A stretch of DNA of 12,696 nt, taken from Anaerolineae bacterium (GTDB taxonomy: Bacteria; Chloroflexota; Anaerolineae; 4572-78; J111). Both the position numbers and the translations under genes were made by a program. This document shows, in pieces, positions 1 through 11,895 of the stretch; the first letter of the stretch is position 1, and every line of letters begins with the position of its first letter. The stretch spans positions 1 to 12,696 of the forward strand of contig JAGRCC010000554.1 of NCBI GenBank assembly GCA_020433785.1, read 5' to 3'. The notes under the pieces were generated by a model that saw only the letters and a list, made by a program, of their open reading frames with translations, was not told the DNA's origin and did no database searches.

Positions 1-491
1 AACACCGTAAAGATGGCCTGTTCAGCCTTGGCCCGCCAGCCGGGCCGATACCAATACCGGCGCACCAGATATTTATGCACTAGGGTTTGATATAGACAGT
101 AACTACCCAGATACCATTTAAGCGGCAGGTTGATGGTGTTATGGAGGCGGCCAATCTTGAGCCGTTTTTCAAAGTAAGCGGGGCCGTAATCCCCTGTAAC
201 CGCTTCCTGAAAGATCTGGCGGAAGTATTCAGCCTGGACCTGCTCCAGATGTTGGCGTACCTTTTCTAGCGGTATCTGTTTTTGCCGGGCATACGCTTCG
301 TAAAAGGCGCGGGTGGGAGCAAAGGCAAATTGATGGTTATAGAAATCCCGGGCCAAGGGTGCGGCTATACCATTAGCCCAACCGGCTAACTGCTTAAGAA
401 TCTGAATTTTATCGAAAGAAAGTTGGATGAATTCCCTACGTAAGTTGAGATTGGTATCATTGAGGTAATACTGTTCGGCTAGATTTGGCAT
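1..491 (-). CDS. Globin-coupled sensor, N-terminal protoglobin domain (partial, runs off left edge)
   Basis: The 163 visible codons translate into a globin-coupled-sensor haem domain (protoglobin family), which normally binds haem and senses O2, NO or CO. The early stretch NDTNLNLRREFIQLSFDKI (residues 11-29), the FYNHQFAF segment (50-57), the EYFRQIF helix (88-94) and GDYGPAYFEKRLKIGRLH (100-117) followed by NLPLKWYLGSY (121-131) fit the family in order. H117 is the expected proximal haem ligand. The ATG at 491 is fixed by an in-frame TAA six bases upstream. No strong Shine-Dalgarno is seen. The output domain lies beyond the window; in this family it can be an MCP module, a diguanylate cyclase, a histidine kinase or nothing. 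Sharing a promoter type with two MCP units makes a signalling output plausible, but this is inference. Confidence 0.9.
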   Translation of the reverse strand, partial: MPNLAEQYYLNDTNLNLRREFIQLSFDKIQILKQLAGWANGIAAPLARDFYNHQFAFAPTRAFYEAYARQKQIPLEKVRQHLEQVQAEYFRQIFQEAVTGDYGPAYFEKRLKIGRLHNTINLPLKWYLGSYCLYQTLVHKYLVRRYWYRPGWRAKAEQAIFTV

Positions 492-556: not shown

Positions 557-626
557 ACTATATCGTCGTTTCTGATCAAAAGTTGACCCAGAAGTGGCCC
601 AAAAGTGGCCCAATTCTGGGTCATAA
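557..626 (-). promoter_or_regulatory. Promoter A: four 11-bp repeats plus -10 box, upstream of the globin sensor
   Basis: On the minus strand four consecutive 11-mers run from 626 to 583: TTATGACCCAG, AATTGGGCCAC, TTTTGGGCCAC, TTCTGGGTCAA. Exactly 20 bp later comes TATAGT (562-557), which puts transcription start near 550 and gives a leader of about 60 nt to the ATG at 491. No good -35 hexamer sits 16-18 bp before the -10 box, and the last repeat abuts that position, as expected of an activator-dependent promoter. Units 1 and 4 are inverted copies, giving a 9-bp inverted repeat (585-593 and 614-622). The same layout recurs at 3185-3254 and 5838-5907. Confidence 0.8.
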
Positions 627-635
627 AGGTGACAA

Positions 636-663
636 GGTGACAGTCACTAAAGTAACTGTCACC
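636..663 (-). terminator. Stem-loop downstream of the dCache MCP gene, possible terminator
   Basis: A perfect 9-bp inverted repeat, GGTGACAGT (636-644) and ACTGTCACC (655-663), lies about 30 nt past the MCP stop codon at 695. On the minus strand it is followed only by TTGTCACCTTT, a poor U-tract. On the plus strand it is followed by TGATTTTTG, which looks more like a terminator, but no plus-strand gene approaches. It may insulate promoter A from the upstream MCP gene, or it may be a protein-binding site. Confidence 0.4.
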
Positions 664-694
664 TGATTTTTGCGAAAACCCTAGAGGGCAAGTT

Positions 695-3133
695 TTAGTG
701 GCCGTTCATCACTCGCTCATGATGACCATTGGTGTACGGCTGATAGATGAACTGAGGCCGGTCTGATGGGCTAGGAATAACCGGCTTGTATTCGACCTGA
801 GCGGTCGCCGTCACCTTGAATTGAGCGACAGCATCCCGCAACTGTCCGGCCATCTCAGCCAAAGTTTGGGCCGAGGCGGTTACTTCTTCGGCTTGCGCAT
901 TCATCTCTTCCGTGGCGGCGCCGACCTCTTCGACCATCGCGGCATTCTCTCGGCTAATGCCGGCAATCGCCTCAATTTCTTCTTGAACCACAATGGAGGT
1001 GGCGGCCATTTCTTCCGTCGAGGCCGTGTTTTCTTCGACTATGGCTGAGACGCTGTCCATCGTATGGCTCAGTTCCTCACCGGCGGCGCGAGCCTGATGG
1101 GCTAATTTGACGGCGTCAGTGGCGTCTTGCTGCATGCCTTCAATCAGTTCAAGAATGTTGGTTAAGGCCTGGCCGGCTTGCTCAGCCTGGGTAGCGCCGT
1201 TGTTGACCTCAATGGAACTTTGCGCCATCGCTTGGATGGCTTCAGTGACTCTATTCTGAATGTTGTGAATGAGTTCAACGATCTCTTTGGTGGCCGTGGC
1301 CGACTTTTCGGCCAGCTTAAGCACCTCATCGGCCACCACGGCAAAGCCTTTACCGTGTTCGCCGGCCCGGGCCGCTTCGATGGCGGCGTTGAGCGCCAGC
1401 AAGTTGGTTTGCGAGGCAATATCGTCAATGGTTTCCACAATCCCACTAATCTGTCCGGAGAGGTGGCCCATCTCTGTTACTTTCTCACTGGCCAGCCCAA
1501 CCGACAATTTAATGCTGTCCAGAGCCTTGATCGCTTGATGGACCGTCTGCGCCCCCGTTTGAGCGGTTTGACTGGAGTGAGCCCCTTTATTCGCCGCGGC
1601 TTCAGCCCCTTGGGTTATCTGCTGAAGGGTCTCAGCAATTTGGTTGGCCATCATCGCCCCGCGGGTAACGGCTGTGGCCTGCTCCTGAGCGCCTTGAGCC
1701 ACACCCTCAATCGCTTGGTTGGTTTGAGCTACGGCGGAGACCGTGTGATTGATGCTATCTGACTGCTGGCTAGAGCCTTGGGCAATTTGCTGCATGATGG
1801 CGGCAATTTGGTCGGTGGCTTGGGCGCTCTGGTTAGCCGCTCCACTGAGTTGGCTTGAGGCCTGTTCGACGCTAGTCGCGTTCTCAGCTATCTGTTGAAC
1901 CAAACCGTTCAGGTTATCGAGCATCTGACTAAAGGCCAGGCCGAGCGTATCTTGCCCGGAGCGCGGCTGGATATTCATCGTCAGATCGCCTTTCGCCAGA
2001 CGTTGGGCGGCTGTGGTCATCTCCTGCATATAGGCCATCATTTCCTGAAAGGCCGAGGCCATGACACCGAGTTCATCCTTGCTCGTAATTTCGACGGACT
2101 GATTGACATCACCGGTCGCCAGACGGCGGGCCGCTTCAGTCATTCTTAAAATCGGCTGCGTCACTTTGCGGGCGACAAACAAGGCGGCACCCACCACGAT
2201 GACCGTTGTAATCAAACCCACCAGCAGACCCAGATTTCGCATTTTGTAAGCTGATGCCAAAGCTTCGCTTTTATCGACTTCAACCAGGAGACCCCAGTTC
2301 ATCTGCTCAATGGGCGTATAAGCGCCCAGAATCGGCTGACCGCGATAGTCCGGATATTCACCAAAGCCTGACTTACCGGCCAGCGCCTCTTGGGTGCCTA
2401 TCGTATTCACCTTGAATTCCAGTTCAGTTCGTTCTTTGATCAACCCCTGCGCTATCAAATCGTCGGTAAACCGGGAAGGGGTAATCATATAACCATCGCG
2501 ATTAACTAAATAGGCTTCACTACTCTGGCCCGTTCGGGCATGAGCCAACAGTTCGGCGAGGTCTACCGTTGGCAGCGTACCGCCAACTACACCGACAACC
2601 TGACCGTCGACGGTAATGGGCGCGGCAGCTACGACAACCACATGTCCGCTAAACTTAGATATAAGGGCGTCGGAAATATTTGGCTCGCCTTTTAAGGCCC
2701 TTTGTAAATAATCTCGCTCACTTAGGTCTACCGACGTATCGCTCGTACTATGAAAAATCGTCATCCCATCCCGGCCGGTGATGAAGAGATCCTCATATTG
2801 AGGGTATTCTTGGCTGAACAGGTCAGCGACTTCTTTAATCCTATCATGGTTCAGCGATTGAACCTCACCCGAACCGGCAACAAACTTCATCTCTCTCAGG
2901 CGATCATCCAGCCAGGAGTTAATCTCGTCGGCTTGAATATTGGCTAAAGTGACCAGTTCGTGGGTGGCATCTGTATGTAAAGCATGTTGACTCTCCCAAT
3001 CGGAGAAAATACCAATGGCCAGCAGCGGCAGCAGTGACAACACCAGGAAAAAGCCAAGGAGCTTGGTTTGGATCGAATTGAAGCTGCTAAAGCGATTTTT
3101 TATTTCAGATTGGGGTAAAGATGATAGGTTCAT
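695..3133 (-). CDS. Methyl-accepting chemotaxis protein with extracytoplasmic dCache sensor
   Basis: Transmembrane chemoreceptor of 812 residues. In order: TM1 (about 24-44), a double Cache ligand-binding domain outside the membrane (about 47-292, with the [12 protein letters not shown] and [12 protein letters not shown] segments), TM2 (about 300-322), a HAMP domain plus a second HAMP-like unit (323-420), then a long coiled-coil signalling domain whose hairpin tip is [20 protein letters not shown]. It should bind a small ligand and control a CheA kinase through CheW, neither encoded here. I prefer the ATG at 3133 over the upstream ATG at 3172: AGAGGT (3145-3140) sits 6 nt before it, and 3172 lies almost at the predicted transcription start. 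Tip residues differ from its paralogue at 3256-5334: EHGKGF for EQGRGF and [10 protein letters not shown] for [10 protein letters not shown]. There is no NWETF-type CheR tether; the tail ends [11 protein letters not shown]. Confidence 0.95.
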
Positions 3134-3184
3134 TTTCTTACCTCTTTGATGTTTTGAGTAATGCAGTTCCATACTTTGATGGTC

Positions 3185-3254
3185 AGTATATCAGCAGTTT
3201 TGGTTACTGAAGAACCCAGAATTGAGCCAAAAAAGGCCCAATTCTGGGCCAAAT
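3185..3254 (-). promoter_or_regulatory. Promoter B: four 11-bp repeats plus -10 box, upstream of the dCache MCP
   Basis: On the minus strand the 11-mers from 3254 to 3211 are ATTTGGCCCAG, AATTGGGCCTT, TTTTGGCTCAA and TTCTGGGTTCT. TATACT (3190-3185) follows after exactly 20 bp. The predicted transcription start near 3178 gives a leader of about 45 nt to the ATG at 3133. The repeats begin only 2 bp past the stop codon of the upstream MCP gene (TAA at 3258-3256), so the whole spacer between the two MCP genes is regulatory. No recognisable -35 box is present. Confidence 0.8.
3215..3248. repeat. 14-bp inverted repeat inside promoter B
   Basis: CCCAGAATTGAGCC (3215-3228) and GGCCCAATTCTGGG (3235-3248) are complementary except for one position, with a six-base A/T loop. 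RNA reading through from the upstream MCP gene would form a strong hairpin with a U6 loop immediately after the stop codon. There is no U-tract after it on the minus strand (TTCTTCAG), so it is not a standard intrinsic terminator. The symmetry may come only from the near-palindromic 11-bp units it overlaps. Confidence 0.7.
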
Positions 3255-3255
3255 T

Positions 3256-5334
3256 TTAGTTACCATTGACCGTGATTTGGTAGCGTCCGTTAACGAACGG
3301 CTGATGGATCGCCTGAAACTGAGGAGAGGAAATTGACTGAGCGGCCTTAGCGTCGGCCGCCACCTTGAATTGAGCCACGGCCTGGCGCAACTGTTCGGCC
3401 ATCTCAGTCATCGATTGAGCTGAGGCGGTCACTTCTTCGGCCTGAGCACTCATTTCTTCCGTCGCGGCGCTGACCTCTTCGATCAGGGCCGAATTTTCTC
3501 GGCTAACGCCGGCAATCGCCTCAATTTCTTCTTGAACTACCATCGAGGTGGCGGCCATCTCTTCAGTGGAGGCGGTATTCTCTTCGACCACGGCCGAGAC
3601 GCTGTCCATGGTGCTGCTGAGTTCCTCACCGGCGGCCCGGGCTTGTTGGGCCAAACTGACGGCGTCGATGGCATCTTGCTGCATCCCTTCAATCAGTTCA
3701 AGGATGCTGGTTAAGGCCAGACCGGCTTGCTCGGCCTGGGTAGCGCCGTTGTTGACCTCGACGGAACTTTGGGCCATCGCCTGGACGGCTTCGGTGACCC
3801 GCTTTTGGATGTTGCGAATGAGTTCAACAATCTCTTTGGTGGCCCCCGCCGACTTTTCAGCCAGCTTACGGACCTCATCGGCCACAACGGCAAAGCCTCT
3901 GCCTTGTTCGCCGGCGCGGGCGGCTTCGATGGCCGCGTTGAGAGCCAGTAGATTGGTTTGCGAGGCAATATCGTCAATGGTTTCGACAAAGCCGCTAATC
4001 TGGCCCGATAGATGTCCCATTTCTGTAACTCTGTCACTGGCTAACCCAACAGCTAATTTGATGCTGTTTAGGGCCTCGATGGCGTGTTGAACAGTCTGCG
4101 CGCCGGTCTGAGCGGTTTGGCTGGAGTGAGCCCCCTTATTCGCGGCGGCTTCAGCCCCTTGGGCTATCTGCTCAATGGTTTGGGCAATTTGGCCGGCCAT
4201 CATCGCGCCGCGAGTGATGGCTGTGGCCTGTTCCTGCGCGCCTTGAGCCACACCCTCAACCGCATGATTGGTCTGAGCTACGGCGGAGGCCGCGTGATTG
4301 ATACTGCCCGACTGCCGGCTAGAGCCGTGGGAAATTTGCTGCATGGTATTAGCAATTTGGGTGGTCGCTTGGGCGCTCTGATGGGCAGCGCCTCTCAGTT
4401 GGCTTGAGGCCAGCTCGACGTTGGCTGCGTTCTCGGATATTTGTTGAACCAAGCCGCGCAGGTTGACGAACATCTGATGAAAAGCCAGACCGAGCGTATC
4501 CCGTTCAGAGCGCGGTCGAATTTCGACGGACAAGTCGCCTTGAGCTAAACTATCTGCCGCCTGGGCCATCTCATGCAGGTAGTCTATCATTTTCTGAAAG
4601 GCTGAGGCCATAACGCCCAATTCATCGTTGCTCTTGACCTCGATGTGCTGATTCAAATCCCCATCAGCAATACCCACCGCAGCGTCAGCCACTATATTGA
4701 CCGCGTTGGTAATTGCGCGGGATAAGAATAAGGATATCGCTACGGCCAAAACAACCGCCACGCCGGCCACAATTAAGCCGATGGTTTGGCTTGCGTGGTT
4801 CTTGTCTATCGCTGTCTGAAGAGCGGCGGCGGCTTCCGCGTTCATTTCGGTGACCAGGGTGTCCACCCGGGTCGTGATGTCTTCGCCATAGGCGTCAAAC
4901 TCTTCCATCGCCGGATTGCCCAGTTCCGGCCCACCATCAATATAGGCTTGAGCCATCCACTGTCCCTTGGCATAGAACGCCTCGAACGATTCGCTTAATG
5001 CGTCCAGCGTCTGCTGATTTTCCGGATACAGTTCGGCCAGCGCCGCCACATTTTCACGAAACTGCTGGGCGTATTTCTCCGCTTCGTCAAAGCCGTCGTC
5101 AAAGCCTTCAGCACCCCGGGTGGCGCTGATATCGGTCAGCCACTGCCACACCTGGTTAACGTCATACTTGATGTCGGCCGCCAGTGCGGCACCCGCATAC
5201 CCTTTATCCCGCGCCATTTCAGCGGCCTTGACGCTATTATTCGTTAGATTCCAGTTCAGGCTAACGATGATGATCAGCATGAGCACGACCACCCCAACAT
5301 TAGCCAGGATTTTATTTCCGATTGTCCATTTCAT
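3256..5334 (-). CDS. Methyl-accepting chemotaxis protein with helical extracytoplasmic sensor
   Basis: Chemoreceptor of 692 residues. TM1 is at about 9-30, an alpha-helical extracytoplasmic domain at 32-179 (probably a four-helix-bundle type; contains [13 protein letters not shown] and the acidic FDDGFDEAE), TM2 at 183-205, tandem HAMP-like units at 206-301 and a long signalling coiled coil with a canonical tip ([26 protein letters not shown], then [10 protein letters not shown]). The ligand is not predictable. The ATG at 5334 is chosen because AGGAG (5346-5342) lies 7 nt upstream; the longer reading from 5367 lacks such a site. It follows the CheY-like gene by 66 nt with no promoter seen between, so the two are probably co-transcribed. 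The signalling half is about 85% identical by eye to the MCP at 695-3133, while the sensors are unrelated. The tail ends [15 protein letters not shown]. Confidence 0.95.
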
Positions 5335-5400
5335 AGTTTTACTCCTTTGCCTAGACGAGTGATGCATAAGAATTAAATTTTGGTCTATCTTTCAATACCG

Positions 5401-5769
5401 TTAACTATTCATAACGGTACGGATGGTCTCTTGGACCGTCGCCAATGTGAATGGTTTTTTGATAAAGCTGTTTAAGCCCGCTTCAGCGGCCTTTTGAGCC
5501 AGGCTGCCCTCGTCGCCGCCGCTCATTAAGATGAACTTCAGCCCCGGCTGCCGCTGTCTGAGTTTAGAGGCCAATTGCAGGCCATCCAGATCACCCATGA
5601 CATAGTCAGAGATGACCAAATCAAAGGGTCGGATCTGGCCCAAAGTGAGCGCCTCCGTTCCGGACTCACTGACTTCAAACTGGAAATCAGGCCCTATCAG
5701 GGCTAAATATTTGGTTAATACCAGGAGAATATCAGGATTGTCATCGACGATGAGAATTCGCTTTATCAT
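5401..5769 (-). CDS. Single-domain CheY-like response regulator
   Basis: A stand-alone receiver domain of 122 residues with no output domain. The acidic pair is D9/D10, the phospho-acceptor is D55 (DLVISDYVMGDLDG), the switch residue is S83 (ILMSGG), and the conserved Lys-Pro is K105-P106 (IKKPF). These make it catalytically complete. An AAAGGGA Shine-Dalgarno lies 6 nt upstream of the ATG. It is first in a probable two-gene operon with the MCP at 3256-5334. Such receivers may act as CheY at a motor, as a phosphate sink or as a phosphorelay intermediate. The MCP link suggests a chemotaxis-like role but does not show which kinase feeds it. Confidence 0.93.
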   Translation of the reverse strand: MIKRILIVDDNPDILLVLTKYLALIGPDFQFEVSESGTEALTLGQIRPFDLVISDYVMGDLDGLQLASKLRQRQPGLKFILMSGGDEGSLAQKAAEAGLNSFIKKPFTLATVQETIRTVMNS

Positions 5770-5794
5770 AGGTCGTCCCTTTAGATATGATTGA

Positions 5795-5851
5795 AAATCA
5801 GTTAATAAGTGAGTGTCACGTAGTTATGATTGTCTACACTATAACTGATTT
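5795..5851. repeat. 10-bp inverted repeat flanking the start region of promoter C
   Basis: AAATCAGTTA (5795-5804) and TAACTGATTT (5842-5851) are perfect inverted copies 37 bp apart. The right arm overlaps the spacer and the first bases of the -10 box of promoter C, and the left arm lies in the leader of the CheY-like gene. Since the right arm is upstream of transcription start, the pair cannot form an RNA hairpin. A two-site repressor operator is possible, and chance is not excluded. Confidence 0.45.
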
Positions 5852-5907
5852 CAGGTAAATAGGATGACCCAGGGTTGGGACTATTTTGGCCCAATTAAGG
5901 TCCAAAA
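5838..5907 (-). promoter_or_regulatory. Promoter C: four 11-bp repeats plus -10 box, upstream of the CheY-like gene and MCP
   Basis: On the minus strand the 11-mers from 5907 to 5864 are TTTTGGACCTT, AATTGGGCCAA, AATAGTCCCAA and CCCTGGGTCAT. TATAGT (5843-5838) follows after exactly 20 bp, the same phasing as promoters A and B. Transcription start is expected near 5831, about 60 nt before the ATG at 5769. Unit 3 is the weakest copy. It lies within the 339-bp spacer 5770-6108, whose remainder holds the repeats at 5946-5977 and 5976-6048 and no gene. Confidence 0.8.
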
Positions 5908-6108: not shown

Positions 6109-6906
6109 TCATTCTGTTGCGAATTTATAGCCAACACTATGAACATTGATGATGTACGCCCCCCCATCCGGAGCCTGGCCCAATTTTCGACGCAGTCGTC
6201 CCAGGTGGCTTTTGAGTAAATCACGGGCCTGGTAAGCATCAACCGTCTGGCCGTGAACGAGGTCGGCCAGTTCTTGAAAGGTTAACGGTTGATCAGGGTG
6301 TTTCATCAATGTCGTTAGCAGGCGAAATTCGGTGGGGCTGAGCGATAGGGTGCGACCGTTTTTGCTAACGACCATTGTTTCCCACTCCACGGCTAACGAT
6401 CGCACTTCAAGCCGAGTGGGCGGAGTTGGCTTTGGCTTAGTGAAGTCCGGCTGGGGTTTCGCCGGCGCGGGGGTTACACCAAAGCTCTCAGCCAGTAGCC
6501 GAGCCGCCAGACGTTGTTGTAACTTAAGCTGACGTCGTTTCATGACCCGCTCGATAGCCTCGAGCAGTTCCTCTATTTCATACGGTTTTAGTAAAAAATC
6601 GCTCGTACCAAGCCGCATTGCTTCAATTGATGTTTCCAAGCTGGCGTGGGCGGTTAGCATAATCAGCTCCGGCGGATCGGCCATTTGCTCGATAGCCGCC
6701 ATCAGTTCCAGGCCGTTAATCCCTGGCATCTGCAAATCAACAATGGCTAGGTCGATGGGGTGCTGACTGAGGAGTGTCAGGGCTTGGTGCCCGTTAGCTG
6801 CGGTAAAAACCTGGTACCCCTCTTCGGTCAATTCCTCGCTGAGGAATAAACGCAGGCTAGCCTCATCATCAACGATCAAAATTTTTCGGGTGTCAGGCTG
6901 GTTCAT
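6109..6906 (-). CDS. OmpR-type response regulator (receiver plus winged helix)
   Basis: Two-component DNA-binding regulator. Residues here count from the upstream ATG at 6912 (267 residues). The receiver (9-125) has D15/D16, phospho-acceptor D59, switch T87 and K109-P110; its AHASLETSIEAMRLG segment resembles NtrC-family receivers. A Pro/Lys-rich linker (about 147-166) leads to an OmpR/PhoB winged helix (168-267), with LSPTEFRLLTTLMKHPDQ before the recognition region and YIINVHSVGYKF at the wing. I prefer the second ATG at 6906 because GGAAG (6917-6913) lies 6 nt before it, against one nt for 6912. The gene overlaps the 3' end of the kinase gene by about 14 nt, so translation is probably coupled and the pair cognate. 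Such regulators bind tandem direct repeats 11 bp apart, which makes this the best local candidate to bind promoters A, B and C. Confidence 0.93.
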   Translation of the reverse strand: MNQPDTRKILIVDDEASLRLFLSEELTEEGYQVFTAANGHQALTLLSQHPIDLAIVDLQMPGINGLELMAAIEQMADPPELIMLTAHASLETSIEAMRLGTSDFLLKPYEIEELLEAIERVMKRRQLKLQQRLAARLLAESFGVTPAPAKPQPDFTKPKPTPPTRLEVRSLAVEWETMVVSKNGRTLSLSPTEFRLLTTLMKHPDQPLTFQELADLVHGQTVDAYQARDLLKSHLGRLRRKLGQAPDGGAYIINVHSVGYKFATE

Positions 6907-7999
6907 GGTCATCTTCCAGTTCGTTGCTGGCAGGTAAGCAGATAGAAAATATACTCCCTACACCCAGCGTACTCTGAACCTCAATGCGACCCCCATGCGC
7001 TTCGATGATGGCGTAACTGATCGACAACCCCAGGCCGGTACCGGTCTCCTTGGTCGAAAAAAACGGCTCAAAGAGTTGGGCCATGACTTCAGTCGACATG
7101 CCGCCACCGCTGTCCTGGACCCTAATCACAAATTGATTTTTATCCGGTAAATAGGCCGTGGTTAGGTTCAATAACCCGCCATTCGACATGGCATCGATCG
7201 CATTGAGAATTAAGTTAATCAAGACTTGTTTGATGTGATCCGGCGTCACTTTAACCAACGGCAAACCGACAGCGAGCGTAACCTTGGCCTCGATCCGTTT
7301 CTGCTGCAATTGTTTACCAACCAAGGCCAAGGTATTTCGCAGCAACTCATTGAGATCGGTTGGCTGTCGGCCGGCTTGACCAGGCCGGGCAAAATCGAGC
7401 GTTTGCCGGGTAAGCGTAATGAGGCGTTCGACTTCTTGGGCCAGTGTGGCGACATAGTGCTGTCGTTTGGCCTCGTCGAGCTGAGGCCGGCTAAGCAGCC
7501 GCAAGCCGCTCCGTAGGGCTTGGAGAGGATTGTTGATTTCATGGGCCAGCGAAGCGGTTAGCCGGCCCAGCGCAGCCAATTTTTCGGTCTGCATCGCGGT
7601 TTGAAGCTGGGTGTAATCTTCACGCAGTTGGCGGCGATCAAGCACCTGCCGCACCATCTGCACCAACTTTACATCATTGAAGGGCTTGAGCAGAAACCCC
7701 TCAGCGCCCAATTCCTGAGCGCGAACGGCGGCTTCAAGGGTGGCGTAGCCGGTCATCATAATCGGGCTAATCTGGGGATATTGGGAGGTAACGTGGTCCA
7801 GCACCGTCAGGCCATCGATATCAGGTAAATCAATATCAAGGAGGATTAAATCATAGCTTGCGTTTGATAACGCCTGAAACGTAGCTTGTCCCGTTTCCGC
7901 AAACTGAACAACTAAACCTTGCTTTTCTAAAACGAACTGGCAGAGTTTCCTGATAAGCCGATCATCATCGGTAACAAGCGCCTTGTAACGTGACCACAT
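6893..7999 (-). CDS. Soluble histidine kinase with N-terminal receiver domain
   Basis: 368 residues and no membrane segment, so cytoplasmic. A receiver comes first (about 5-120): D11/D12, phospho-acceptor D55 (LILLDIDLPD), T83, K105-P106. Then comes a HisKA dimerisation domain with phospho-histidine H153 (LAHEINNPLQ, the NtrB/AtoS-like form) and an ATPase domain with N-box N266 (NLILNAIDAM), D296-SGGG, the F-box EPFFSTKETG and the G2 box GTGLGL (320-325). All catalytic residues are present. The receiver-first order suggests it takes phosphoryl groups from, or is modulated by, an upstream kinase, possibly the large hybrid encoded next to it. It overlaps the OmpR-type regulator gene. The ATG at 7999 has an in-frame TAA directly before it and no Shine-Dalgarno, matching the leaderless promoter proposed at 8006-8034. 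Confidence 0.94.
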   Translation of the reverse strand: MWSRYKALVTDDDRLIRKLCQFVLEKQGLVVQFAETGQATFQALSNASYDLILLDIDLPDIDGLTVLDHVTSQYPQISPIMMTGYATLEAAVRAQELGAEGFLLKPFNDVKLVQMVRQVLDRRQLREDYTQLQTAMQTEKLAALGRLTASLAHEINNPLQALRSGLRLLSRPQLDEAKRQHYVATLAQEVERLITLTRQTLDFARPGQAGRQPTDLNELLRNTLALVGKQLQQKRIEAKVTLAVGLPLVKVTPDHIKQVLINLILNAIDAMSNGGLLNLTTAYLPDKNQFVIRVQDSGGGMSTEVMAQLFEPFFSTKETGTGLGLSISYAIIEAHGGRIEVQSTLGVGSIFSICLPASNELEDDHEPA

Positions 8000-8064: not shown

Positions 8065-11000
8065 TTACTTATAGTTGATATAGACCCGCGTACCCTGACC
8101 GAGGGCTGTTTCAACTCGCAGCATACCGCCCACACTTTCTATACGTTCACGCATGATCGATAAACCAAAGCTGGCCGTTTTTTTGTTGATTTCGACGGGA
8201 TCGAAACCCTGGCCTTGATCTTCAACGATGATGCACAGCGAGTCATCCTCTTGAGCCAGCCGAATAATGGCCGTTTTGACATGAGCGTGCTTCCGAATAT
8301 TGATCAAAGCCTCTTGGATGGTGCGCACCAGCTGAGACGTCACTTCAGGGGGAAAGACAAACAACGCCGGATCGGCGGCTTGGACCAGTTGAATATCCAA
8401 ATGGTAAAAGCGTTGATATTTATCGACATAGCGTTCCAGCAGTTCCATAAAGCTCATATTCGACTGAATTTTGGCTCTCAGGTTAAAAATCTCTTCTCGC
8501 ACATCGGTATATGTTTCGCCGATAACCTGCTTCACCTCTTGTAGATCGGTGATGATCGTCTCCCGATTCTCGTTGCTCAGATTCGCCAGAACAGTCCCCA
8601 TTCTTAGATTGATATAGCCTAAAGCCTGAGCCACGGTATCGTGAAGCTCCTGGCCTAGCCGATTCCGCTCGCGCATCTCAGCCAACAAACGTTTGGCTTT
8701 CTCCTCCTCTTTGCGTTCGTGAATATCAATAACCGAGCCGATGTAGCCCAAAAACTCCCCTTCCGAATTTAACCGGGGCGAGGCCGAATCAAGCATCCAG
8801 CGATATTCATCATCGTTACGGCGAAGGCGATACTCCAGCCGAAAAGGCTGGTGTTTTTTTATAGCCTCCAAAAACGATTTTTCCGTGATCTGGCGGTCGT
8901 TGGGATGAACGACTTCGAACCAGCCAAACCCCAGCGCGGTTTGGGGCGTTTGTCCGGTAAATTCATACCAGGTTTTGCTAATATAAGTACACGTTCCATC
9001 CAACTCCGTGACCCAAATCATTACCGGAGCGTTGTCGGCCATATTGCGAAACCGGGCTTCGCTTTCCTGCAACGCTTCCTCGGACAGCTTGCGATCAAGG
9101 AACTGACCAACGGCCTGACTAAGCGGTTTGAGTTCGCTGAAGACATTGTCTGATAAGACATAGCGAGAGAATAAAGCCATCACGCCCACCACCCGCTTGT
9201 GAACAATGAGCGGATGGCCGGCAAAGGCCACCAAGCCTTCCTGCTTAGCCCAGGCTGGATCACCAACATTTGGATCATTGGCGACGTCATTTGATAAATG
9301 GGGCTTACCCAACTCAGCAATCCGTCCGATTTTGAAAGATCCCATTGGCACCCGGCTATGCTCTCCATCGAGATGAGTGTAGATACCGGCGCTGGCCTGG
9401 AGTTCCAACATATCTTCAACCGAATTCAAAATCCAGATGCGGGCAAAGGCACAATCGAGATGGGAGACTAGCGCTTCACAAACGCCCTGAAGCACAGGTC
9501 GGCGCGGCTTGTTGCTGACCAGCAGCTCTGACACCTCAGCCCGTAACAGAGCCAGACGCGCGCGTTCGGCCAACTCATTTTTAATTTGCTGCCGTAACCG
9601 GGTTAAGGCCAATTGGGCGCCCACCCGGGCCAGCAGTTCCTGGGCTGAAAAGGGTTTAATTAGATAATCATCCGCGCCGGCCAGCAGCCCTTCGATAACA
9701 GCCTCTTCTCCAGCTCGCGCTGACAGGAGAATGACCGGGACAGTTTGAGTGGCCGGATCGGCCCGCAGTTGGCGCAATAACGCGAAGCCATCCAAACCCG
9801 GCATCATAATATCAGACAAAATTAAGTCCGGGGCATTAACCCGGGCGGCCGTCAGAGCCGCCGCACCATTGCTGACCAGCTCTACCGTCCAATGAACGGC
9901 CAGCACGCGGTGGAGATATCGGCCCATATCGAGGTTATCCTCCACTAAGAGAATGCGCGCTCCAGGCACGTTGAGCGCGGTTACCAGGTCTGCCCGACTG
10001 GCCCCATCCAGAACCTCTATTTGAGCCTCTGGACTAATTTGGGCGGTCGACAGCTCCGGCTCGGGCAGCCAGTGGAGGACTTCTTCAACGTAAGGTTGAG
10101 CCGTTTCCATGTTCGGCATAGCCGCCGCCAGACGTTCAATCTGGCCGGACGGCAGGTGGGCGATTCCCGTGGGTATGTGGACGGTAAAGGTGGTACCTCG
10201 ATCAACCTCGCTCTCAACGTGGATATTACCGCTGTGAAGGTGAACAAGTTCTCTAACCAGGGTCAAGCCAATACCGGTTCCCTCGTAAGTTCGAGCGCGA
10301 CTATCACGCACCCGATGGAATCGTTCGAAGATATGAGGCAGTTCATCAGCCGGAATGCCCGTGCCTGTATCGGATACTGTAAGCTCAACATAGTCAGGCC
10401 ATGCCCGCAGCTTAACCGCAATCTCCCCTTGGTGAGTGAATTTAAGGGCATTTGACAGCAAGTTGAGAACGATCTTCTCCCACATTTCCTGATCGATGTA
10501 AATCGGTTCAGCCAAAGGGGGGCAATCGATCACCAGCCGCAGTCCGGCCCGTTCAACCGCCGAACGAAAAACGCTGGTGAGTTCAGCTGTAAACGTAGCC
10601 AGCTCGGTCGGCCGAAATGAGGCTCGCATCCGTTTGGCTTCGATTCGAGAAAAATCAAGCAAGGTATTAACTAACTTGAGCAGGCGCAAGCAGTTGCGCT
10701 GGGCCAGTATTAATGTCTCGCTTTGCTGCGGCAGTAAGGGCCCTAGATTACCGTTTAAGAGATCTCTTAACGGTCCCAACAACAGCGTCAACGGCGTCCG
10801 GAATTCGTGGCTGATGTTGTTAAAGAAGGTCGTTTTGGCCTGATCCAGTTCGGCCAGAGCTTCGGCCCGCTGGCGTTCCGCTTCATAAGCACGGGCGTTA
10901 GCCACGGCCGTGGCCATATGGCCGGCTATCAGTTCCAGAAACCCTCGATAATCATCATCCAAAATCCGGCGCGAATTTAGCCCGGCGACCAGATAGCCGG

Positions 11001-11895
11001 TTGCCATATTTTGACCTTGAGCCGCAATCGGCAAAATCAGGGCGGTGTGAGGGGGTTCGGGCCAGGGGCCGGGGGGAACACAACTAAAGCAGGTGGCGAG
11101 ATGATTGACCAAGACAGCCCCACTGGTTTGATTGACTTGCGCCAGCGGCCACGCCTCGGCCTCACTATCTGAGCCGGCTATGGCCATGACGAGCGGGCTA
11201 ATCGGCGTTCCGGGCCCGACGCCGGTCGTGCCAACCAGGTGAGCTTCCTGCTCGTGAGTGTCTAAGAGGTAAAGCAACGCAAAAGGGATATCAATGGGGT
11301 TATGCGCCAAGATTCCGGCGGCGATGGCGGCCGCCTGCTCGGCGGTTTTACCTTCACTGGCTTGTGCGCCCAAATCGCGTAGGGTTCGCAGCCGCCGCTC
11401 GCTGAGCACCCTCGCTGTAGTTTCGATGCAGGTCACTAATACGCCGCCAATGCCGCCGCTCTCATCGCGAATGGGGCTGTAGGAGAAGGTAAAATAGGTT
11501 TCCTCGATGTACCGGTTCCGGTCCATCACCAGGAGTAGGTCGTCGGACCAGGTGGCATGCCCGGTGGCAAAGACACTGGTGGCCATGGGGCCGATGACGT
11601 CCCAAATTTCGGCCCAGCACTCCCACCCCCGCTGGCCCATCGAACGCGGGTGTTTGGTCGCACCCAAGATGGGCCGATAAGCATCATTATAGAACTGGAT
11701 CATCTCCGGTCCCCACCAAATCAGCATAGGGTAGCGCGAGGCCAAACAGATACTTAAGCCGGTCCTTAAACTCTGCGGCCATTCTGCCGGGGAGCCAACC
11801 GGCGTCTCCGCCCAGTCAATGGTCCGTATCAAGGCTCCCACTTCCCCTCCCCCCATCAGAACCTGTTCTATATCGGACGAGAATACTTGCTCCAT
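8065..11895 (-). CDS. Dual-core soluble hybrid kinase: PAS-GAF-HisKA-ATPase-REC-GAF-PAS-HisKA_3-ATPase
   Basis: 1276 residues, no membrane segment. In order: PAS-like domain (about 30-165); GAF (about 170-335, with CFSC at 269-272); HisKA with H363 (ISHEFRTPL); ATPase with N482, D509-TGTG and GTGIGL (539-544); receiver (645-760) with E652/D653, phospho-acceptor D695, S725, K747-P748; GAF (about 785-930); PAS (about 945-1060); then a NarX/DesK-type HisKA_3 with H1085 (GQELHDTVAQ) and its ATPase (EALINIRKHA 1195-1204, DQGQGFDP from 1226, FGLSIMRERI). Both cores look catalytically intact, so one polypeptide seems to hold a classical hybrid kinase and a NarL-system kinase. The usual NarL/LuxR-type partner is not in the window. 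A run of AGGGG sits about 11 nt before the ATG, rather far. The gene has no visible link to the repeat promoters. Confidence 0.93.
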   Translation of the reverse strand: MEQVFSSDIEQVLMGGGEVGALIRTIDWAETPVGSPAEWPQSLRTGLSICLASRYPMLIWWGPEMIQFYNDAYRPILGATKHPRSMGQRGWECWAEIWDVIGPMATSVFATGHATWSDDLLLVMDRNRYIEETYFTFSYSPIRDESGGIGGVLVTCIETTARVLSERRLRTLRDLGAQASEGKTAEQAAAIAAGILAHNPIDIPFALLYLLDTHEQEAHLVGTTGVGPGTPISPLVMAIAGSDSEAEAWPLAQVNQTSGAVLVNHLATCFSCVPPGPWPEPPHTALILPIAAQGQNMATGYLVAGLNSRRILDDDYRGFLELIAGHMATAVANARAYEAERQRAEALAELDQAKTTFFNNISHEFRTPLTLLLGPLRDLLNGNLGPLLPQQSETLILAQRNCLRLLKLVNTLLDFSRIEAKRMRASFRPTELATFTAELTSVFRSAVERAGLRLVIDCPPLAEPIYIDQEMWEKIVLNLLSNALKFTHQGEIAVKLRAWPDYVELTVSDTGTGIPADELPHIFERFHRVRDSRARTYEGTGIGLTLVRELVHLHSGNIHVESEVDRGTTFTVHIPTGIAHLPSGQIERLAAAMPNMETAQPYVEEVLHWLPEPELSTAQISPEAQIEVLDGASRADLVTALNVPGARILLVEDNLDMGRYLHRVLAVHWTVELVSNGAAALTAARVNAPDLILSDIMMPGLDGFALLRQLRADPATQTVPVILLSARAGEEAVIEGLLAGADDYLIKPFSAQELLARVGAQLALTRLRQQIKNELAERARLALLRAEVSELLVSNKPRRPVLQGVCEALVSHLDCAFARIWILNSVEDMLELQASAGIYTHLDGEHSRVPMGSFKIGRIAELGKPHLSNDVANDPNVGDPAWAKQEGLVAFAGHPLIVHKRVVGVMALFSRYVLSDNVFSELKPLSQAVGQFLDRKLSEEALQESEARFRNMADNAPVMIWVTELDGTCTYISKTWYEFTGQTPQTALGFGWFEVVHPNDRQITEKSFLEAIKKHQPFRLEYRLRRNDDEYRWMLDSASPRLNSEGEFLGYIGSVIDIHERKEEEKAKRLLAEMRERNRLGQELHDTVAQALGYINLRMGTVLANLSNENRETIITDLQEVKQVIGETYTDVREEIFNLRAKIQSNMSFMELLERYVDKYQRFYHLDIQLVQAADPALFVFPPEVTSQLVRTIQEALINIRKHAHVKTAIIRLAQEDDSLCIIVEDQGQGFDPVEINKKTASFGLSIMRERIESVGGMLRVETALGQGTRVYINYK

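Follow-up and report, generated by a model that had tools for sequence, protein, structure and literature searches.

What links three rows of short repeats, each standing before a sensory gene on a 12,696-nucleotide contig of an Anaerolineae bacterium (JAGRCC010000554.1; the whole stretch is called the window), and what would act on them? The three sites appear to be copies of one operator-promoter element, which would place the chemosensory genes of this lineage under one regulator, and this regulator is probably encoded next door. All three lie on the minus strand, a point left out of the original prediction:

557-626, minus strand: S1, before the globin-sensor gene; cores 622-617 (inverted), 612-607, 601-596 and 590-585; TATAGT at 562-557
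3185-3254, minus strand: S2, before the gene for a dCache methyl-accepting chemotaxis protein (MCP); cores 3250-3245 (inverted), 3240-3235, 3229-3224 and 3218-3213; TATACT at 3190-3185
5838-5907, minus strand: S3, before a CheY-like gene and an MCP gene; cores 5903-5898 (inverted, weak), 5893-5888, 5882-5877 and 5871-5866; TATAGT at 5843-5838

An operator-promoter element of fixed phase

The pattern AATTGGGCC-N15-CTGGGT was found three times in the window as an exact match (586-615, 3214-3243 and 5867-5896, all minus strand) and in none of 200 dinucleotide shuffles, which bears out the claim that it is hard to obtain by chance. The boxes TATAGT, TATACT and TATAGT of S1, S2 and S3 likewise stand at one fixed distance from the array, as had been stated. 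The gap from TATA box to start codon is 65 nt for S1 and 68 nt for S3; for S2 it is 51 nt if the MCP gene starts at the internal ATG at 3133, as it probably does (database copy P0001, 812 aa). A scan for -35-like hexamers found none at the three window sites.

Twenty-five sites, from the window and its relatives, were compared. Unit 1 is inverted and units 2 to 4 are direct; from one core centre to the next the steps are 10, 11 and 11 bp, the first being 10 rather than 11 because of the inversion. The element spans 72 positions in fixed phase, and its spacing is identical throughout in 22 of the 25 sites. The consensus of these 22 consists of a 6-4-6 inverted pair, GTCCCA-AAAA-TGGGTC, followed by two TGGGWC half-sites at 11-bp steps, 22 bp and TATAGT; in full it reads TTTGTCCCAAAAATGGGTCTATTTTGGGACAATTTTGGGTCA, 12 variable bases, AAAATTTGG and TATAGT. 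The inverted unit 1 is the reverse complement of TTTTGGGACAA, the consensus of unit 3. Two further sites (G003:C448 and G017:C109) are each one base shorter, while in a variant, G003:C644, exactly one 11-bp unit is missing and the last unit stands as far from the -10 box as elsewhere. Of 24 sites, 21 have a TG extended -10; those without it are S1, S3 and the G001 site.

To define unit orientation, 24 sites were scored with a matrix built from units 2 and 4, leaving out the site being scored. Unit 1 scored better reversed in 24 of 24 sites, and positively in 22 (S3 and the G016 site being poor both ways), whereas unit 3 scored better forward in 23; the exception is again S3, where this unit (5882-5877) scores poorly in both orientations. 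Units 2 and 4 read forward in all 24, with a negative score for unit 2 of a single site. Hence the earlier description of four consecutive 11-mers stands for the steps from unit 2 to 3 and 3 to 4 but not for the first, and what had been called looser copies are an inverted copy (unit 1) and a direct one (unit 3). The forward reading of unit 3 in 23 of 24 sites also speaks against two tandem 6-4-6 palindromes, as for a CRP/FNR-like dimer at about -42 and -64, an arrangement that the window sites by themselves would have allowed.

Half-sites recurring every 10-11 bp or so in phase with the promoter, as in operators of the OmpR/PhoB type, are thus seen at the 24 aligned sites and in the one-unit-shorter variant. 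Furthermore, the orientation scores reveal a 6-4-6 inverted repeat with in-phase direct half-sites, the layout of AgrR. This OmpR-family protein of Cupriavidus metallidurans binds an inverted repeat of 16 bp (6-4-6), joined at some of its operators by direct half-sites in phase with it, and seems to be a type II activator (PMC7380067).

Distribution in relatives and the genes behind the operator

The comparison drew on the genomes of relatives (G001, G002 and so on), with an order set of 25 genomes from the order of G003. Many of them are in small contigs and several of the seven operator genomes are fragmentary, so that absence of the operator from a genome may mean missing sequence. A contig scan with an alignment of 14 response regulators gave eight loci, of which L001-L004 are close relatives (55-79% identity). 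Six of 25 matches to a loose form of the pattern (up to three mismatches) were accepted as real because the flanking units and -10 context also fit: one each in G001, G002 and G004, and three in G003. A three-mismatch match, G004:C30 (L011), was dropped, its flanking unit being absent. The G001 site has zero mismatches; it lies behind an MCP gene and before that of a 617-aa protoglobin-MCP, which starts like its window counterpart, the globin gene, so that the order MCP, operator, globin-MCP is common to both.

A sequence-only model, R1, was built from nine sites (the three of the window and these six). In the order it found 16 sites outside its training set with the same unit order and E values of 1.3e-13 to 1.6e-5: ten in G003, four in G017 and one each in G016 and G018. 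At E 1e-3 eight of the 25 genomes were matched, the eighth (G012) by a partial match inside a 2158-aa frame that was not counted. In the same order a second model, R2, built from 24 sites, had 22 matches at E ≤3.5e-9; every one lies in the seven operator genomes (G001, G002, G003, G004, G016, G017 and G018), and 21 are training sites. These were followed by G017:C47 (1.1e-6), G004:C2 (7.4e-6) and G001:C77 (2.4e-5), the remainder starting at 4.9e-4. Searches spanning more than 40 genomes used stricter filters: R1 matched 6 of 298 genomes of the class at E 1e-4, all among the seven (the seventh, G004, was evidently outside the class sample), and R2 matched 1 of 400 genomes of the phylum at E 1e-5, namely G003 (the other six evidently falling outside the phylum sample).

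Targets were counted from the 22 strong R2 matches plus G017:C47 and G004:C2. G001:C77, together with C266 and C461, was excluded as by eye a separate palindromic repeat, and G018:C160 (E 0.0038), which precedes a gene resembling the MCP gene behind G017:C109, was left out as too weak. Behind the window sites, Pfam matches support the genes originally named:

3-491, minus strand: protoglobin sensor, cut by the window end (Pfam)
695-3172, minus strand: dCache-HAMP-MCP (Pfam)
3256-5367, minus strand: HAMP-MCP, second gene downstream of S3
5401-5769, minus strand: CheY-like single receiver, first gene downstream of S3

Outside G003, 10 of 11 counted sites precede chemotaxis genes (10 of 12 if G001:C77 is counted). 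Besides the G001 globin-MCP, these are CheY-like/CheW units in G002 and G016 (with CheR checked in the latter), an MCP and a CheY-like/CheW unit in G004, CheA in G018, and a CheW unit, CheA and two MCPs in G017. The exception, G017:C47, stands before a 384-aa protein with weak family matches only. A CheY-like first gene similar to that behind S3 follows the operator in G002, G003, G004 and G016. The regulon appears enlarged in G003, where the operator precedes many non-chemotaxis genes. First genes there encode two FHA proteins, of which one also has a protein kinase domain, a WD40 protein, two metalloproteases (M36 and M4), a two-CW protein, a 422-aa protein without a family match, a multihaem cytochrome about 650 nt away and a Flp/Fap-like pilin (28.8 bits, short of the 32.2 cut-off); behind two more sites there are short frames only. 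That the shared operator defines a predicted regulon is well supported by this comparison. The label "regulon of sensory inputs" is supported as to the shared control, which extends to relatives, and too narrow as to content, given CheA, the units with CheW, CheR, CheB and CheY-like proteins, and the many other genes of G003.

The candidate regulator and competing explanations

Three signalling genes lie upstream of S3 in the direction of transcription:

6109-6912, minus strand: OmpR/PhoB-type response regulator (receiver and Trans_reg_C), candidate operator regulator
6893-7999, minus strand: histidine kinase that begins with a receiver; its gene overlaps that of the response regulator
8065-11895, minus strand: hybrid sensor kinase of 1276 aa with two kinase modules (HisKA, HisKA_3), receiver, GAF and PAS

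The response regulator belongs to the OmpR/PhoB family by Pfam (Response_reg 105.6 bits, Trans_reg_C 62.3 bits, both above cut-off), and its best solved relative by sequence is MtrA. None of the named OmpR-family orthologs of NCBIfam (PhoB, OmpR, KdpE, CpxR, RpaB etc.) exceeded its cut-off among the best 25 of 102 matched families, RpaB coming first with 125.8 bits versus 330. Among the 25 genomes, full-length relatives with 56-79% identity occur only in G001, G002, G003, G004, G016, G017 and G018, which are exactly the seven with confident operators. The next relatives are found in G020 (46%) and then, full-length, at ≤38% in the order and, after G020, at ≤43% in the class search. All genomes matched by the operator models across class and phylum also carry the regulator. 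CheW is encoded in 17 of the 25 genomes, 10 of which have neither operator nor regulator. Two random sets of seven would coincide with a chance of 1 in 480,700 (25 genomes) or 1 in 19,448 (17 chemotactic genomes), figures that ignore kinship and are too favourable. An RpoB tree covers 21 genomes of the 25, six of the seven operator genomes among them (G006, G010, G018 and G024 gave no usable RpoB, and the G004 sequence spans a third of the columns). On it the label of operator and regulator does not follow one clade: it needs three changes, at least two of them forced by well supported branches. G001 and G003 share a well supported group with G013 and G014, which carry neither.

The regulator gene is preceded by that of a receiver-histidine kinase in the window, G001, G002, G003, G004 and G016 (by Pfam) and in G017 and G018 (by likeness), and this kinase is its likely partner. 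If the TATA box is placed at -12 to -7, the cores begin near -72, -62, -51 and -40, and the last of the four reaches to -35, the place expected for a -35 box. An activator bound to one helix face would replace the -35 element. A one-face activator is favoured by the last half-site ending at -35, the lack of a -35-like match in the window, the fixed phase and the one-unit variant; hence activation from one face of the helix is the best reading of position and phase. We consider it reasonably probable that the element is a class II-like activator site of the 6109-6912 response regulator in the AgrR layout. The element itself, its conservation, phase, neighbouring genes and co-occurrence with the regulator are observed, and the identity of the binder, activation and the part of phosphorylation are inferred.

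The operator and regulon may be real yet bound by another factor, for instance a SARP-type or other winged-helix protein encoded elsewhere, while the response regulator merely shares their distribution. SARP-type regulators bind 11-bp spaced repeats, the presence pattern contains few independent changes, and in G017 and G018 the response regulator was not seen beside regulon genes. We nevertheless regard a different binder as unlikely. In the window, G002 and G016 the regulator gene is immediately followed by the operator and the CheY-like gene. Moreover, a stretch of its DNA-binding domain, presumably the recognition helix, is nearly constant in all eight operator lineages (ARDLLKS, or ARDMLKS in G017 and G018) and differs in the closest operator-less homologue, that of G020 (ARDALST). 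G069, G224, G123, G284 and G034 were kept out of this comparison, a neighbouring frame having taken the place of the regulator.

Should the response regulator be the binder, it might repress instead of activating. The array abuts the promoter, and the TG extended -10 of most sites (21 of 24) could work unaided; we hold repression to be improbable, given that no -35-like hexamer was found by scan at the window sites, that the array ends where class II activators sit and that three sites, two of them in the window, have no extended -10.

Units 1 and 2 could alternatively form an intrinsic terminator of the upstream gene, outside the operator. In S2 the pair GGCCCA-GAAT-TGGGCC (3235-3250) gives a stem of 6 bp with a loop of four bases; on the gene strand T6 comes next, and the stop of the upstream MCP gene lies directly before the pair, so that here units 1-2 may double as a terminator; stems at this position in relatives were judged by eye only. 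As a general explanation this is very unlikely, since 22 of 25 sites have units 1-2 in constant register with both units 3-4 and the -10 box, and at the L068 site the nearest upstream frame (≥100 aa) ends about 380 nt before the array.

MraZ boxes are direct TGGG repeats, with TGGGN recurring every 10 bp. Binding of MraZ to the operator can be set aside as extremely improbable: tandem TGGG cores and a match to MraZ in 21 of 25 genomes speak for it, but the boxes read upstream of mraZ (4 of 10 regions: G003 L181, G013 L190, G014 L184 and G015 L189) consist of TGGGG-type repeats, for the most part at 10-bp steps and in some cases at 12, 20 or 22 bp, the operator has 11-bp steps and a different motif, G003 holds both motifs as distinct elements, 16 MraZ genomes have no operator, and G004 and G018 (operator present, fragmentary) show no MraZ.

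Several observations weigh against control of this operator by the neighbouring response regulator. The co-occurrence rests on seven genomes of one order and few independent events, and any other regulator of the same distribution would fit it. The loose pattern gave 25 matches in four genomes versus 30 for the reversed control, and is therefore background when taken alone; with R2, weak matches at E ≤0.1 are spread over 16 of the 25 genomes, and nine of these lack the regulator. Of the 13 sites in G003, just 2 stand before chemotaxis genes (a CheY-CheB-CheR unit, its CheB named from the first residues only, and a CheY-like gene). The stretches around the regulator in G017 and G018 show no chemotaxis gene, no operator site was found upstream of the kinase-regulator genes in the window, and in G012 the che unit is preceded by another OmpR-type regulator, with 35% identity. 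An array position near -35 would also allow repression.

A wider proposal is that one dedicated two-component system controls the chemosensory array, along with surface and secretion genes in some members, and that the array sets its own expression through phosphate feedback. The partner kinase could receive phosphate from CheA or from the large hybrid kinase next door: outside feeding is possible because the kinase has a receiver at its N-terminus, which in the window and G001 is the sole input domain that Pfam finds. Weak GAF or PAS matches in the kinases of G002, G003, G004 and G016 could represent a sensor of their own, and we regard the whole proposal as speculative and unlikely. The hybrid kinase gene lies upstream of the kinase-regulator pair, and its product is a possible phosphate source.

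Known systems and neighbouring observations

PhoB boxes are 11-bp direct repeats that stand in for a -35 element. They resemble the operator in having 11-bp repeats near -35, and differ from it in sequence, in distance and in having no inverted first unit. CpxR, another OmpR-family regulator, acts on chemotaxis genes (motABcheAW and tsr) but within an envelope-stress regulon, in contrast to the apparently chemosensory one here. The MraZ boxes of the dcw operon share the tandem TGGG cores upstream of genes, and are set apart by the motif, step length and separate occurrence described above.

ArcA of Escherichia coli also belongs to the OmpR/PhoB family and has multi-repeat sites with steps of about 11 bp; 92 of 158 sites contain three to five repeats, mostly 11 bp apart, yet they are described as direct repeats of another sequence and control carbon oxidation genes (PMC3798270). 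The closest match is AgrR, which shares the 6-4-6 inverted repeat with adjoining in-phase direct half-sites. Its half-site is ATTACA as opposed to TGGGWC, its targets are tied to silver resistance, and it has direct half-sites at some operators only, whereas two are found here at 24 of 25 sites (PMC7380067). The statement that the operator was not recognised thus needs qualifying, in that its layout is the one published for AgrR (PMC7380067) and a candidate regulator lies in the window.

In the open literature, among the matches listed, no paper was found that deals with an operator of this kind or with how the transcription of chemotaxis genes is controlled in Chloroflexota. The motif and regulon look new and the mechanism is of a known kind. 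Having a fixed phase, recurrent targets and a candidate regulator next to it, the element lends itself to direct testing in a group that is largely uncultured, and with it chemosensory and surface genes can be predicted on contigs from metagenomes.

Outside the operator genomes, G011 and G012 (large contigs) have units like CheW-CheR-CheW-MCP-CheA in the same order as in G016 (CheW checked). R2 gave no match up to E 1 in the che stretches of G011-G015 or around the G020 regulator. In front of the G011 che unit, AAATTTGGTGTAGTA (L237:4408-4665) is like the regulon -10 context. In G012 two TTGGG-type cores 11 bp apart (L236:3122-3323) precede the gene of the different OmpR-type regulator; they may be chance or a remnant. 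The excluded G001 matches (C77:1262-1327, C266:13633-13683 and C461:28899-28979) fit the operator model weakly, C77 and C461 on both strands, and a palindromic element like TGTCCTAAAATTGGGACAATTTTGTCC at C77 and C266 looks to be a different dispersed element.

Within the window, a hairpin GGTGACAGT...ACTGTCACC at 633-668 lies in the gap from the dCache MCP stop to S1 and could act as terminator of that gene, though no T run follows it. All Pfam-supported genes of this 12.7-kb contig lie on the minus strand. In order of transcription they encode a Meth_synt_2-family protein (end only), the large hybrid kinase, the receiver-histidine kinase and the OmpR/PhoB-type regulator, followed by the CheY-like receiver, the HAMP-MCP, the dCache MCP and the globin sensor (start only).

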